Shown piece after piece: positions 51,584-58,131 of a stretch of 64,000 bases of DNA. The translations under genes and the position numbers were made by a program. The notes beneath the pieces were generated by a model, which worked only from the letters and a program-made list of their open reading frames with translations, made no database searches and was not told the DNA's origin. Source of the DNA: Ancylomarina subtilis (GTDB lineage Bacteria > Bacteroidota > Bacteroidia > Bacteroidales > Marinifilaceae). The stretch spans positions 1,429,781 to 1,493,780 of the forward strand of contig NZ_SHKN01000001.1 of assembly GCF_004217115.1 (NCBI RefSeq). Direction: 5' to 3'. Position 1 is the first letter of the stretch, and each line of letters opens with the position of its first letter.

Positions 51584-53701
51584 ATGAAAAAATACATTCG
51601 CTGGATTCGACAGAATACAAAAGTTATATACCGTGTTTTACTATTTATTATCACTCTAGGAGTCTTATCTCTAATATATCCGAATATAGGTAACTTCAGA
51701 TATGAATATCAGAAAGGAAAACCATGGATGCACGAAACATTGATCGCACCATTTGACTTTGCCATTCATAAAACAGAAGCTGAGCTGGCTGCAAACAGAG
51801 ACAGCCTTTTAGCTAATTTCTCCCCTTACTACGAATACAAACCTGAAGTTCTAGTTAATGTAAGCAATAAATTCAATGCTGATTTTGACAAGAAATGGAA
51901 TGCTTACATTCAAACAGAGCATTTCAAAAATTTAAACTATAACGAATCAAGCACATCAATAGAAAAAAAACGTATTCGTCTCTATTTCCAAGACATTATA
52001 TCAGGTATTTATGATGTCGGAATTATTGAGGCTTCAACAGACCAACTTCAAATTCCCGAAAAAATTAATCGTTCTCTGAATAATATTAGCGAAAAGATTG
52101 AAACCAAAAGCTTATACACACCTCAAACAGCCTACGAGTTTATAAACAAGAGTTTAAAAGATGATTTTAAGGATCAAAACTATCATGTTTTTTTCCAGAA
52201 CTTAAATCTGGACACCTACTTAACACCGAATCTTATTTACAATGAGGATATGTCTGAGAAAGTTAGAAACAGCATGCTCAGCAGTATTTCTCTGACCAAA
52301 GGTTTAGTTAAAGCGGGGACCCGTATCACTTTAATTGGTGATATTATTGATGATGATACCTTTAGAGTTCTGGAATCTTTAAAAAGAGAATACGAGAGCA
52401 TTCTGGGCTCCTCACAGAGCCATTATCTGATTATGGGAGGACAAAGTCTATTGATTTTAGCCTGTCTGATTTTGCTTTTCTTATACCTAAGGAACTTTCG
52501 AATACAGATACTGGAAGATAATAAGAAACTTCTGTTTATTTTGCTTCTGATTGTGATATTTGTCGGGCTTTCAAGCCTTGCTATGAAGTTCCCTATCATC
52601 AACATATACATCATCCCTTTTGTATTGATTCCCGTTGTTCTTAGAACGCTTCTCGATTCCAGATCGGCTCTGTTTATTTTTATTATTTCCTTGCTTTTAA
52701 ATGGATTCTTAGCTCCCAATAGTTTTGAGTTTCTTTTCTTACAATTATCAGCAGGAATTATGGCTATTTACTCTTTGCCTCAACTTGAACGTAGGGGTCA
52801 ACTTGTTATCACAGCCATAATTACTTTCTTCACTTATAGCATTGTTTATTTTGCTTTCGCCATTACTCAGGAGGGAAGCATTCAGGAAATTGAATGGAAG
52901 AATTTCATTTGGTTTGCCATCAACGGCCTTTTATTGACTTTCTCATATTCTCTTATTTACATTTTCGAAAAGCTTTTTGGTTTTATTTCCGATGTGACTT
53001 TAATTGAGCTCGCGAATCAAAACCACCCCGTTTTGCGCCAATTGATTCAGCATGCACCCGGAACTTTTCAACATTCCCTAACCGTAGCCAATTTAGCTGA
53101 GGCTGCAATTAACGAAATCGGTGGTAATCCCCTTTTGGTGAGAACCGGGGCTCTTTATCATGATATTGGGAAAATGAAAAACCCGGTATATTTCATTGAA
53201 AATCAAATGACCAATAGGAATCCTCATGATAGTCTGGAATTTGACAAATCGGCACAAGTCATTACCGACCATGTTAAATATGGTATACAAATCGCAAAGA
53301 AACACAAATTACCACAACAAATTATCGATTTCATTCAAACTCATCATGGTGCAGGACGTGTGCAGTATTTCTATACCTCTTTCAAAAATAAATATCCCGA
53401 TAAGGAGATTGATGAAGAAAAGTTCACTTACCCCGGACCAGATCCATTTTCAAAGGAAACAGCTGTGCTAATGATGGCTGACTCCGTAGAAGCAGCGTCA
53501 AGAAGTCTGAAAGAAAAAACACCTGAAAGTATCGAAAATTTGGTTATCAGTCTTATTGACAAACAGATTTCTGAAAATCGTTTTGAAATGGCAGATATTA
53601 GTTTTAAAAATATTCACCAAGTCAAAAAGATATTCATCCAAATGCTAATTAATATTTATCACGCCAGAATAGAATATCCTAAAGAGATAATCCGAGACTA
53701 A
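51584..53701 (+). CDS. pgpH: 7TM-HD phosphohydrolase, PgpH-like c-di-AMP phosphodiesterase
   Basis: A 705-residue membrane enzyme: N-terminal membrane anchor (VLLFIITLGVLSLIYP), an extracytoplasmic 7TMR-HDED domain about 45-275, seven membrane helices about 280-475, and a C-terminal HD domain with H497 (FQHSLTVANLAE) and the metal pair H526-D527 (GALYHDIGKMKNP). PgpH-type proteins hydrolyse cyclic di-AMP and so tune turgor and wall stress responses. Closed by a strong terminator; divergent from the NlpC/P60 gene. Confidence 0.92.
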   Translation: MKKYIRWIRQNTKVIYRVLLFIITLGVLSLIYPNIGNFRYEYQKGKPWMHETLIAPFDFAIHKTEAELAANRDSLLANFSPYYEYKPEVLVNVSNKFNADFDKKWNAYIQTEHFKNLNYNESSTSIEKKRIRLYFQDIISGIYDVGIIEASTDQLQIPEKINRSLNNISEKIETKSLYTPQTAYEFINKSLKDDFKDQNYHVFFQNLNLDTYLTPNLIYNEDMSEKVRNSMLSSISLTKGLVKAGTRITLIGDIIDDDTFRVLESLKREYESILGSSQSHYLIMGGQSLLILACLILLFLYLRNFRIQILEDNKKLLFILLLIVIFVGLSSLAMKFPIINIYIIPFVLIPVVLRTLLDSRSALFIFIISLLLNGFLAPNSFEFLFLQLSAGIMAIYSLPQLERRGQLVITAIITFFTYSIVYFAFAITQEGSIQEIEWKNFIWFAINGLLLTFSYSLIYIFEKLFGFISDVTLIELANQNHPVLRQLIQHAPGTFQHSLTVANLAEAAINEIGGNPLLVRTGALYHDIGKMKNPVYFIENQMTNRNPHDSLEFDKSAQVITDHVKYGIQIAKKHKLPQQIIDFIQTHHGAGRVQYFYTSFKNKYPDKEIDEEKFTYPGPDPFSKETAVLMMADSVEAASRSLKEKTPESIENLVISLIDKQISENRFEMADISFKNIHQVKKIFIQMLINIYHARIEYPKEIIRD

Positions 53702-53703
53702 AC

Positions 53704-53742
53704 AAAAAACTTGACTGAAAGCTATCAGTCAAGTTTTTTTTT
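53704..53742 (+). terminator. Intrinsic terminator of pgpH
   Basis: aaaaaacttgactga / tcagtcaagtttttt, followed by a run of T. Confidence 0.88.
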
Positions 53743-53937: not shown

Positions 53938-55587
53938 ATGAAACGTTATACCCTTTATTGCCTAAGTTTCTTCATGCTTCTTTTATCTTTCAGTGCCTGT
54001 CAATCCCCAAAAAAAGAAGTAAAAACCACAAAAGACACAGTCATGCAACGTAAGTTGGCTAATTATGCTAAAGTTAAGCTAAATGCTGATTTAAGCAGCT
54101 TATCTGAAGGGCATGTCAAACTGCTCTCTCACCTCTTAAAAGCTGCAGATGCCATTGATGAATTATACTGGAAACAAGCTTATGGTGATAAAAATGCGCT
54201 TCTAAATAAAATTGGTAATGATCCTGATATGAAAGCATACGCCATGATTAATTATGGTCCCTGGGATAGATTAGATGGTAACGCTCCTTTCACTGACGAT
54301 TTCCCTCCTCGCCCACTTGGTATCGGTTTTTTCCCAAGTGACATCAACCAAAATGATTTCTTTGCAATCCCTGGAAATGAAAAATTTGAGCCATTAACAA
54401 TTGTAAAAAAAGATGCACAAGGAAATCTGAAAGTTGTGCCTTATCACAAAGCCTATAAAGATCAAATAAGTAAAGCTGTTGATCATATTCGTAAAGGTGC
54501 CGAGTTTTGTGACTGTCCTGATTTTAAAAAATATTTATTGCAGCGTGCAGAAGATTTATTAACCGATAACTTTGAAAAAAGTGACGCACTTTGGTTGAAT
54601 TTGAAAGATAATAAAATTGACTTTATTGCTGGGCCTATTGAAAATATCGAAGATCATTTGATCTGGACAAAATACTCTTATGGCGCCTTCATTTTATTAA
54701 GAAATATGGAATGGACAGATGAAGTTAAAAAATTCTCCCTACTTCTTCCATACTTGCAAAAGAACTTACCTGTAGAAGATAAGTACAAGTCTGAAACACC
54801 TGTAGAAAATTCAGATATTGTGATTTACGATGTATTGTACAATTCAGGTTATTGCAATGCAGGGAATAAACTAATTGGGTTGAATCTTCCAATTGGAACT
54901 GAACGTGTGGTCGCCCATTCCAGAAAAGTTCACTTCAAGAATGTTGTTGAAGCAAAATTCCAAAAAATCCTGCAACCTATTACTAATCTTGTCATCGATG
55001 AGAAACAAAGAAAACATGTCAAGTTTAACTCTTTCTTCCAAAATACAATCTTTTATGAGATCAGTAACAGTCTTGGAATTTCACAAACAATAAATAATAA
55101 GGGAAGCGTTAAAGACGCACTTAAGGAACATCACGCAATTATTCGCGAACTTAAAAATGATGTACTGAGAATGTTCTTCATTACCAAATTGCACGAAATG
55201 AATGAACTTAAAGATGTTGATCTGATGGATAACTATGTAACACATATGGCCGACGTTTTCCGTTCAGTCCGATTTGGGGTTACAGATGCACAGGGGGTTG
55301 CGAATATGATTCGTTTCAATTATTTCAAAGAGCAAGAAGCTTTTAAATACGACTCAAAAACCGGAACATATAAAATTAACGATTATAAAATGAAGAAAGC
55401 AATTGAGTCACTATCCAAATTAGTTTTAGAGATTCAGGGAAATGGCGATTATGAAAAAGCTGCTGAATTAATTCAGGATAAAGGTTATATTCATAACGAA
55501 CTTCTTAACGACTTATATCGCATTCAAAGAGCTCACATTCCTAAGGATATAGTTTACGATCAAGGTGATCAACTTGCTATGGAATAA
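53938..55587 (+). CDS. DPP III-like (M49) lipoprotein lacking zinc ligands
   Basis: A 549-residue lipoprotein (LSFSACQS, Cys21). From residue 40 on it follows the M49-like family of Bacteroidota: MINYGPWDRLDGNAPF, RPLGIGFFPSDI, DFIAGPIENIEDHLIW, SGYCNAGNKLIGLNLP, RFGVTDAQGVANMIRFNYF. In active members, as I remember them, the segment after FFQNT-F carries H-E-x-x-H; here it reads Y373-E374-I-S-N377-S, so both zinc-binding His are replaced. The second motif, which should start E-E, reads R403-E404-L-K-N-D408. It is therefore probably not a zinc peptidase but a pseudoenzyme, perhaps a peptide-binding protein. Its own terminator makes it monocistronic. Confidence 0.75.
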   Translation: MKRYTLYCLSFFMLLLSFSACQSPKKEVKTTKDTVMQRKLANYAKVKLNADLSSLSEGHVKLLSHLLKAADAIDELYWKQAYGDKNALLNKIGNDPDMKAYAMINYGPWDRLDGNAPFTDDFPPRPLGIGFFPSDINQNDFFAIPGNEKFEPLTIVKKDAQGNLKVVPYHKAYKDQISKAVDHIRKGAEFCDCPDFKKYLLQRAEDLLTDNFEKSDALWLNLKDNKIDFIAGPIENIEDHLIWTKYSYGAFILLRNMEWTDEVKKFSLLLPYLQKNLPVEDKYKSETPVENSDIVIYDVLYNSGYCNAGNKLIGLNLPIGTERVVAHSRKVHFKNVVEAKFQKILQPITNLVIDEKQRKHVKFNSFFQNTIFYEISNSLGISQTINNKGSVKDALKEHHAIIRELKNDVLRMFFITKLHEMNELKDVDLMDNYVTHMADVFRSVRFGVTDAQGVANMIRFNYFKEQEAFKYDSKTGTYKINDYKMKKAIESLSKLVLEIQGNGDYEKAAELIQDKGYIHNELLNDLYRIQRAHIPKDIVYDQGDQLAME

Positions 55588-55604
55588 AGGAAAATCGTTC
55601 ATAG

Positions 55605-55646
55605 AAAAACAAAAGCTTGTCAACATCGACAAGCTTTTGTTTTTTA
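55605..55646 (+). terminator. Intrinsic terminator
   Basis: aaaacaaaagcttgtc / gacaagcttttgtttt, a 16-bp perfect inverted repeat followed by T-rich sequence. Confidence 0.88.
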
Positions 55647-55737: not shown

Positions 55738-58131
55738 ATGCAAAAATTTCTACTCATCCTGCTCCTATTAATCTGTTCATTTGCATCTCAATCACAGACG
55801 ATTAAAATTATAAATAAGAAAACTCAGCTACCCATTGAGGATGTCTATATTTACACTCAAAAAACATCTACTAATAGTTCAAAAATTGGGCAAGCCGATT
55901 TATCAAAATTCTCTAAAGACGCAATCATATTTTTTCAGCATCCCTCGTTTCAGAATTTACATTTGCCTTATAAAACCATTGCAGAAGAAAAATTCATTGT
56001 CCAACTTACACCACAACTGTTTAAAATAAATGAGGTAACCATTGCAGCGAATAAATGGGAACAAAACCCCAAAGAAGTTCCGGTGAATTTAATTCAAATT
56101 GATAATAAAGCAATCAGAAACAGTGAAGTATCAACCTCAGCTGATTTACTAAAAGAAAGCGGACAGATCTTTATTCAAAAGAGTCAAATGGGAGGTGGAA
56201 GCCCAATGATTAGAGGATTTGCTGCTAATAGGGTATTAATTGTTCTCGATGGTGTGCGCTTGAATAATGCCATCTATAGATCCGGAAACCTACAAAACCT
56301 TCTTAATATCGATCCAAACAGCCTGGAATCAGCCGAAGTTATTCTGGGCCCGGGTTCCGTTATTTATGGTAGCGATGCCATTGGTGGTGTCATGGATTTT
56401 CATACCATTAAACCTCAATTATCTACCGACAGCTCTATAAACTTCCAATTAAATCACAAAACCAGATATGCCTCAGCAAATCACGAATTAGGCTTTCATA
56501 CCCGTTATTTTGTTGGAAATCATAAATGGAGCTATGCGGGAAACATTAGTCATTCTGACTATTCCGATTTAACAATGGGACGTAATGGCACCAACCAATA
56601 CAATAGAACCGAATACGTTATCAGAGAGAATGATGTGGATGAAATTGTGAAAAACTCAAAACCTTATGTCCAGGAAGGAAGTCAGTTTAATCAACTAAAT
56701 ATCATCCAAAAACTAAGATATAACGTTTCGAAAAACACAGATTTACAGTATAACTTTCTCTATTCTTCCACCTCTGATATTCCCCGTTACGACAGATTAA
56801 CACAATACTCCGGTGATAAACTGAAATATGCCGAATGGTATTATGGCCCGCAAAGATTACAATTCCATTCGTTAAATCTCACCAACAAAAACACCAATGC
56901 TCTATTCGATAACTTTAAACTTATCTCAGCCTATCAAACTTACGAAGAAAGTCGACATTCCAGAAAATTGAATAACAATGATATTAGTAAACGTTTTGAG
57001 GCTCTGGATATTTTCTCAACCAATCTGGATTTTAATAAAAAACTGAATTCTGAAATTGATTTATTTTATGGCTTTGAATATTTATACAATTACTTAAATT
57101 CAACAGCCTATAAAAAGAATGTCCTAAACTCAACAACTTCTCCTTTAGCAAGTCGGTATCCGGATAACTCAAGCTATTCCAGCTTGGCATCCTATACAAA
57201 TGTAAAATGGAAACCCAATGATATGTGGACATTTAATGGTGGGTTGCGTTATTCCCATGTCTGGATAAAATCAAAACTCAACAAGGATTTCTATACTTTT
57301 CCTTTCACCAGTCTTAATTTAAATACCGGAGCTTTAAATGGGAGTTTAGGCGCAACCTTACAAACCAATAATAACTATTTATTAAAACTAAATATGACAA
57401 CCGGTTTTAGAGCGCCAAATATCGATGATATTGGTAAGGTTTTCGACTCTGAACCTGGTAAGGTTGTTGTTCCCAATAAGGATTTAAAATCAGAATATGC
57501 CTACAACTTTGATTTTAGCCTTAGTAAAAATATCACCAAAGACTTTTTTATCGACTTCAATGCATTTTACTCCATCTTAAAAGATGCAATGGTACGACGA
57601 GACTTTACATTTGATGGACAATCTACTTTGATGTATGATGGTGTGGAAAGTCAGGTGCAAGCCATAGTTAATGACGACAAAGCCATTGTTTATGGCTTAA
57701 GCCTAAAAGCTAAAGCACAACTCTCATCAAATTTCATACTGGATGCCTATTACAACCGTTCTAAGGGAGAATACAAAGATGGAACACCTGTGAGACATGT
57801 ACCGCCTACTTTTGCTTCTGTAGCTTTGAAATTTAAGTCAAAAAAATTAAAATCGAAGCTATCAATTGATTACAATGGTGAAATTGCCAATCGAGATTTA
57901 GCTGATACAGAAAAAAGCAAGGCTTACATGTATGCAAAAGATCGCAATGGTCTTCCCTACTCCCCGGAATGGGTTTGCGTCAACTTAAATAACAGCTATG
58001 TGTTTAGAGATAAAATTATTTTAGGCTTCAGCATCGAAAATATCTTTGACACAGCTTACCGTCCCTATTCGTCAGGAATATCTGCTCCCGGGAGAAATTT
58101 TATTTTGAGTTTAGCTTTTGAAATAAAATAA
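55738..58131 (+). CDS. TonB-dependent receptor, heme/siderophore type
   Basis: A 797-residue outer-membrane receptor: signal peptide 1-19, a short carboxypeptidase-regulatory-like domain 20-95, a plug domain with GGGSPMIRGFAANRVLIVLD, YRSGNLQNLLNIDP and GPGSVIYGSDAIGGVMDF, then a beta-barrel ending in FILSLAFEIK. The plug motifs match the hemoglobin/transferrin/heme receptor group rather than SusC, so an iron compound is the likely cargo. The PepSY membrane protein 1.5 kb away fits an iron-uptake neighbourhood. The stop lies 9 bases from that of the convergent antiporter. Confidence 0.88.
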   Translation: MQKFLLILLLLICSFASQSQTIKIINKKTQLPIEDVYIYTQKTSTNSSKIGQADLSKFSKDAIIFFQHPSFQNLHLPYKTIAEEKFIVQLTPQLFKINEVTIAANKWEQNPKEVPVNLIQIDNKAIRNSEVSTSADLLKESGQIFIQKSQMGGGSPMIRGFAANRVLIVLDGVRLNNAIYRSGNLQNLLNIDPNSLESAEVILGPGSVIYGSDAIGGVMDFHTIKPQLSTDSSINFQLNHKTRYASANHELGFHTRYFVGNHKWSYAGNISHSDYSDLTMGRNGTNQYNRTEYVIRENDVDEIVKNSKPYVQEGSQFNQLNIIQKLRYNVSKNTDLQYNFLYSSTSDIPRYDRLTQYSGDKLKYAEWYYGPQRLQFHSLNLTNKNTNALFDNFKLISAYQTYEESRHSRKLNNNDISKRFEALDIFSTNLDFNKKLNSEIDLFYGFEYLYNYLNSTAYKKNVLNSTTSPLASRYPDNSSYSSLASYTNVKWKPNDMWTFNGGLRYSHVWIKSKLNKDFYTFPFTSLNLNTGALNGSLGATLQTNNNYLLKLNMTTGFRAPNIDDIGKVFDSEPGKVVVPNKDLKSEYAYNFDFSLSKNITKDFFIDFNAFYSILKDAMVRRDFTFDGQSTLMYDGVESQVQAIVNDDKAIVYGLSLKAKAQLSSNFILDAYYNRSKGEYKDGTPVRHVPPTFASVALKFKSKKLKSKLSIDYNGEIANRDLADTEKSKAYMYAKDRNGLPYSPEWVCVNLNNSYVFRDKIILGFSIENIFDTAYRPYSSGISAPGRNFILSLAFEIK

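Follow-up and report, generated by a model that had tools for sequence, protein, structure and literature searches.

The window analyzed here is a stretch of 64,000 nucleotides from the genome of Ancylomarina subtilis, a genus placed by the NCBI taxonomy in Marinifilaceae, Marinilabiliales, Bacteroidia. The gene under study lies at positions 53938–55587 of its plus strand, starts with ATG and encodes a protein of 549 amino acids, annotated as a putative pseudo-DPP III lipoprotein from the open reading frame, a phmmer match to the structure 6eom and an AlphaFold2 model. The reading frame was as stated in the preliminary description, and the strings regarded there as fold-defining (PWDRLDG, AGPIENIEDHLIW, CNAGNK and RFNYFKEQEAF) were all found in it. 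The first codons (53938–54000, plus strand) specify a lipoprotein-type signal peptide with Cys21 at its end (LSFSA-C), which we take to be a lipobox; Cys21 was conserved without exception in 17 of 17 relatives aligned. The closest named orthologue, from Ancylomarina salipaludis, was 94% identical. Throughout this work, "pseudo" designates an M49 copy lacking both histidines of the HExxH motif, and "HExxH group" the relatives with both.

The expected terminator was also present as a terminator-like hairpin of 18 pairs immediately 3' of the pseudo gene (55604–55645, plus strand). A similar hairpin (53704–53739), scored on the minus strand but followed by a T run on the plus strand too, separates it from an upstream 7TM-HD phosphohydrolase gene (51584–53701, plus strand; Pfam), which is a conserved neighbour in Ancylomarina, Labilibaculum and Marinifilum. 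Hairpins both before and after the gene suggest that it may form a single-gene unit, although they are pattern matches only. Downstream lies a gene for a TonB-dependent receptor (55738–58131, plus strand), whose nearest models were haem/haemoglobin receptors, all below their cut-offs (194 bits against TIGR01786, where the cut-off is 324). The order NlpC/P60 gene, 7TM-HD phosphohydrolase gene and pseudo gene was kept in 15 named loci (Ancylomarina, Labilibaculum, Marinifilum and Marinifilaceae), with the phosphohydrolase present in 15/15 and the NlpC gene in 14/15, the remaining locus being too short.

The nearest solved structure by sequence was the DPP III of Caldithrix abyssi (6eom; phmmer E 2.9e-86), and the Corallococcus enzyme (5zum) was matched with an E of 4.1e-65. 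An AlphaFold2 model built with 17 aligned sequences as input (pLDDT 82.9, pTM 0.82) likewise had 6eom as its closest solved structure, with TM scores of 0.85/0.89, a Z of 44 and an rmsd of 2.0 Å over 507 residues; weaker VIA-align matches (Z < 8), to other peptidases, were set aside. Homology along the chain and the model, which was run as the preliminary description had proposed, thus both assign to the protein a predicted two-lobed DPP III (M49) fold. It shares length, fold and 28–33% identity with the short (pentapeptide) bacterial DPP IIIs 6eom and 5zum, but lacks their zinc histidines, catalytic histidine and substrate Tyr/Asn (Y242/N324), and has no Pfam M49 match. PF03571 (Peptidase_M49) was absent from a Pfam scan of the protein even at E values up to 10, and Pfam and NCBIfam together returned chance matches only; the same Pfam family was matched by the HExxH paralogue of the same genome. 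The two members of the pseudo clade that were scanned gave no Pfam match above chance.

Residues were mapped by hand through the phmmer alignment to 6eom and a MAFFT alignment against HExxH relatives. In Caldithrix DPP III, zinc is bound by H379, H383 and the second glutamate of EECKAD, E412, as described in PMC5805324. The former HExxH site of the 549-residue protein (55054–55068, plus strand), aligned to 6eom, 5zum and 180 HExxH relatives, reads Y373-E-I-S-N377, exactly as had been claimed: it aligns with Caldithrix H379-E-I-S-H383, so that H379 is replaced by Y373 and H383 by N377, and it departs from the HExxGH/HExxH zinc motif of active M49 members. The claim that the zinc site is lost stood with regard to both histidines and to the presence of RELKND (R403-E-L-K-N-D408; 55144–55161, plus strand), but not for the third ligand. 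In this second motif, placed by the alignments and PMC5805324, E411 of EECKAD is lost to R403, whereas the ligand E412 is retained as E404. The string as a whole does not fit the EExR(K)AE(D) form described for M49 in PMC9101112.

The substrate carbonyl is contacted by His465 in Corallococcus DPP III (PMC9820243) and by His568 in the human enzyme (PMC9079729, PMC9101112), where Tyr318 and His568 are described as crucial for activity (PMC9101112). By hand mapping and the alignment of relatives, this position is occupied by Q452 (55291–55293, plus strand). Among the residues reported to hold the substrate in Caldithrix DPP III (PMC5805324), Y242, D310 and N324 are replaced by I237, Y305 and I319, while E240 and N321 are retained as E235 and N316. 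The active-site loss is therefore wider than the two histidines, yet one zinc-ligand position remains. Since the substrate tyrosine (Y242), the asparagine that binds the N-terminus (N324) and the catalytic histidine are all replaced, a plain retention of DPP III-style peptide binding appears doubtful.

A zinc motif elsewhere in the chain was rejected, as none of HExxH, HExxxH or HxxEH was found along the rest of the 549 residues; the alignment with active M49 members and this search, both of which the preliminary description had called for, left the loss standing. Strings resembling HExxH or HExxxH occurred at other places in 4/61 pseudo relatives, and the only histidine present in 75% of the 61 pseudo sequences, H170, was also found in 68% of the HExxH group. 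An error in sequencing or a local decay was likewise rejected, given that orthologues from other assemblies carry the same change. In all, the 549-residue protein is very probably not a zinc peptidase.

To what extent the change is shared was determined at several taxonomic levels. A family-level search found a pseudo orthologue at ≥63% identity in 22/56 genomes, and all 22 lacked both histidines. An order-level sample of 393 genomes, with follow-ups, added families f98, f90, f66, f64, f67 and f48, bringing the genomes with a pseudo copy to at least 60, spread over seven families within a single order, with the motif read in each (f1 22, f98 18, f64 9, f90 5, f67 3, f66 2 and f48 1). These counts are lower bounds, as genomes with two matches, including G091 and G228, have copies outside them; further second copies outside the counts include those of G307, G137, G240, G328, G112, G081, G201, G294, G377 and G437. 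Beyond the order, no pseudo copy was detected among 395 genomes sampled at class level, in which the 29 newly fetched loci were all of the HExxH type and 28 lower-scoring listed matches were left out, nor in a phylum sample of 296 genomes, in which all 49 loci were HExxH.

Trees were built from identity-thinned representatives with the active-site columns removed. In the careful tree (42 rows), the pseudo sequences formed one clade with 100/99 bootstrap/SH-aLRT support, the bootstrap being not quite settled. This tree, rooted on five distant HExxH relatives and leaving out half of the HExxH representatives as well as the long outgroup row L240, placed the HExxH sequences as paraphyletic to the pseudo clade. 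Two quick trees again recovered the pseudo sequences as one clade (SH-aLRT 97–100). The simplest account would be a single loss before the copies of the seven families diverged or spread, and independent losses in several families are unneeded given the single-clade tree. The change is not a product of chance, as every one of the 22 orthologues from the family-level search carries it, and so does every relative in the clade.

Motifs were counted over long sequences, 61 pseudo and 180 HExxH, which were mostly best-scoring matches rather than a random sample; frames with fewer than 480 query positions (e.g., L026, L051, L071, L173 and frames cut by the locus end) were dropped, and sequences sharing identical last 380 residues were counted once. 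Both zinc histidines were absent from 61/61 pseudo sequences and present in 180/180 of the others, the groups being defined by these letters. The first motif position was always aromatic in the pseudo group (Y 54, F 6, W 1), the following glutamate (E374) was invariant (61/61), and the fifth position varied (S 23, D 18, N 15, G 3, E 2) but was never histidine. At position 452, 58 sequences had Gln and 3 had Tyr, and E404 was retained in 44/61 and lost in 17/61. By comparison, all 180 HExxH sequences had H, E, H, H and E at motif position 1, the Glu, motif position 5, position 452 and E404, respectively. Among 111 positions conserved at ≥90% in the HExxH group, 11 were lost in the pseudo group, and 7 of these lay among the 11 active-site positions that were conserved (Fisher p 2.8e-6, only indicative, as the active-site positions had been selected from papers and the alignment, with the group-defining motif among them).

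Two further features of the clade were recorded. Outside the listed active-site residues, D439 (codon 55252–55254) was clade-specific, with Asp in 82% of the 61 pseudo sequences and in 0/180 HExxH sequences. Separately, the pseudo copies of f67 (L264, L265 and L266) formed a fast-evolving branch that has also lost the third zinc ligand, together with the acidic residue closing the second motif; their motifs read YEMAG, YEMAN and YEMGG, with SYIKNY, SHIKNY and DYIKNY.

Within Ancylomarina, the median dN/dS of the pseudo gene was 0.041 (Nei-Gojobori, 12 usable of 15 pairs), compared to 0.043 for the active paralogue (3 pairs), both rough values since many dS exceeded 1; the closest pseudo pair (dS 0.77) gave 0.034. 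Pseudo pairs from other families yielded 0.048, 0.057 and 0.116, and two more pairs were not computable. Protein distances among pseudo copies were on average 1.76 times those among active copies (17 genomes with both, of 19 intended). The pseudo gene is under strong purifying selection, with the fold, the lipobox cysteine and the HExxH glutamate kept. A non-catalytic role maintained by selection, as put forward in the preliminary description, is well supported by the existence of one old clade, a dN/dS of about 0.04 and a loss aimed at the active site (7/11 lost positions).

The search for a catalytic paralogue elsewhere in the genome, also suggested there, was successful. A short copy (L005, at G000:C1:2285604-2287247) 0.8 Mb from the pseudo gene carries intact HEVAH and EEGKAD motifs. 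It resembles the 549-residue protein in its 46% identity over residues 13–545 and its lipoprotein-type N-terminus, and differs in keeping both motifs. The genome also carries a long M49 in a 660-residue frame.

A closer association was observed in family f64, where the pseudo gene immediately preceded an HExxH gene in 9/9 genomes with a match (10 searched). Taking the first Met as the start, the gap was 7–13 nt in eight of them and 171 nt in the other. The members of the f64 pair sit in two different tree groups, so that neither arose by recent duplication of the other. In four loci (L267, L268, L289 and L290) the active partner starts with a signal-like stretch without a lipobox cysteine, so that shared anchoring is not general. 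In L291–L295 and L300–L304 (g80, g513), the active partner has an extra N-terminal stretch of about 90 residues after a lipoprotein-type signal.

More generally, a short HExxH copy was also present in 56/60 pseudo-bearing genomes, uninterrupted in 54 as far as seen (f1 21/22, f98 18/18, f64 9/9, f90 2/5, f66 2/2, f67 3/3 and f48 1/1), while 214/393 genomes of the order sample had a short copy, whether pseudo or HExxH; co-occurrence was above background, with genome kinship ignored. Among the exceptions, no short HExxH gene was found in the pseudo-bearing genomes G144, G245 and G847 (completeness 98, 88 and 77%), and G003 (99%) had only an HExxH-type fragment of 41 residues. The active paralogue of G025 (f1) was broken into two pieces (G025:C1:1146403-1148036; L071, L312) and that of G831 (f98; G831:C324, L162) was interrupted by a stop, with the pseudo frame long and open in both; the HExxH copy of G839 was cut by a contig end. 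The genomes with a pseudo copy only indicate that it is not strictly dependent on an active one.

We consider the protein to be a catalytically dead DPP III lipoprotein of an ancient pseudopeptidase clade, whose most likely partner is the active short DPP III, and assign this reading a probability of roughly 0.55. Presumably devoid of zinc, it would be unable to cut peptides, and its two-lobed body, which the lipoprotein-type N-terminus would anchor in the membrane facing the periplasm or the outside, may be used for binding instead. In a mixed pair with the active short DPP III, it could modulate the activity, stability or substrate delivery of that enzyme. A partner role is favoured by the tandem in f64, by co-occurrence in nearly all pseudo-bearing genomes and by a description of the short Corallococcus DPP III as dimeric in its crystal (PMC9820243). 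Several observations speak against it: G144 and G245 hold lone pseudo copies, and in the genome of the window the two genes lie far apart, with the pseudo gene on its own between its two hairpins; the findings in G003 and G847, the broken copy of G025, the stop in G831, the varied neighbours, the faster divergence and the unshared anchoring also count against it. The protein probably functions as a partner or a ligand-binding relative of the active enzyme; the partner role taken singly is put forward tentatively, and most of what remains falls to a stand-alone binding role. A full two-subunit DPP III system, in which the ancient zinc-less M49 lipoprotein would serve the active short enzyme as a subunit that regulates it or presents its substrate across seven families, encoded next to it in one family and separately elsewhere, is more speculative still.

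A role in binding a ligand on its own is almost as probable as the partner role, though by itself a minority view. Here, the cleft would close on a peptide or small ligand and the protein would act in reception or delivery, for example for the neighbouring TonB-dependent receptor. The retained DPP III fold fits this, as does the persistence of the pseudo gene in G144 and G245, where no HExxH gene was found, and a TonB receptor adjoins the pseudo gene in 12/13 named loci with enough flank; in f64, a TonB-plug protein likewise comes after the pseudo-active pair in L268 (Pfam) and L267 (by its N-terminus). Conversely, several substrate-binding residues of DPP III are mostly lost, a hairpin separates the pseudo gene from the receptor gene in the window, and A. 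salipaludis (L035) keeps the pseudo gene with no receptor at that place. Neighbours also vary among families; in f98, for instance, a lipoate-ligase-like gene was upstream in 7/10 loci by N-terminal look, one of them Pfam-tested. Uptake with a neighbouring TonB receptor was rejected as a general rule on account of A. salipaludis and the different neighbours of the other families.

A new zinc-free enzyme, with Glu374, the aromatic residue 373 and Gln452 as a different active centre, seems improbable. The conservation of E374 and Q452 would agree with it, and reuse of the fold has a precedent in PolE/DUF6421, an Fe/pterin-dependent oxidase that matched the DPP III-like fold with a Z of 19 and in which the catalytic His is described as not conserved (PMC12614342). 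In PolE, however, the metal is still held by two His and a Glu, in an iron site of the form HE/DxxH-x(21-23)-E (PMC12614342); the aligned site of the 549-residue protein is YEISN, its chain holds no HExxH-type string, and no such histidines are conserved in the pseudo clade. With position 377 and E404 both variable, the clade has no conserved set of metal ligands. The same variation makes a surviving metallopeptidase with E374, E404 and position 377 (N/D/S/G/E) as ligands highly unlikely: E374 is invariant and E404 frequent, but E404 is lost in 17 sequences, position 377 drifts, and the catalytic His and substrate Tyr are gone. A decaying gene on its way out, which the faster divergence relative to the active paralogue might suggest, can practically be discounted in view of the dN/dS of about 0.04, the long open frames in seven families and the single old clade.

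With regard to known systems, pseudopeptidases occur in other metallopeptidase families too, and the bacterial M16B heterosubunit enzyme pairs an inactive homologue with an active one; this inactive/active pairing may be a likeness, although that family is unrelated to M49. No description of a non-catalytic or zinc-less M49 lineage was found among the titles and abstract openings listed by searches of one open-literature library, MEROPS may list non-peptidase homologues of M49, and a term search of the metallopeptidase pseudoenzyme review PMC11266112 returned neither "M49" nor "dipeptidyl peptidase". At subfamily level, the pseudo clade adds a variant to a fold already described and to pseudopeptidases as an established phenomenon. 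As an old and conserved clade, two scanned members of which had no above-chance Pfam match, its genes have likely been left unnamed or misnamed as zinc peptidases, and the tandem arrangement with an active homologue offers a way into the question of a regulatory subunit for bacterial DPP III.
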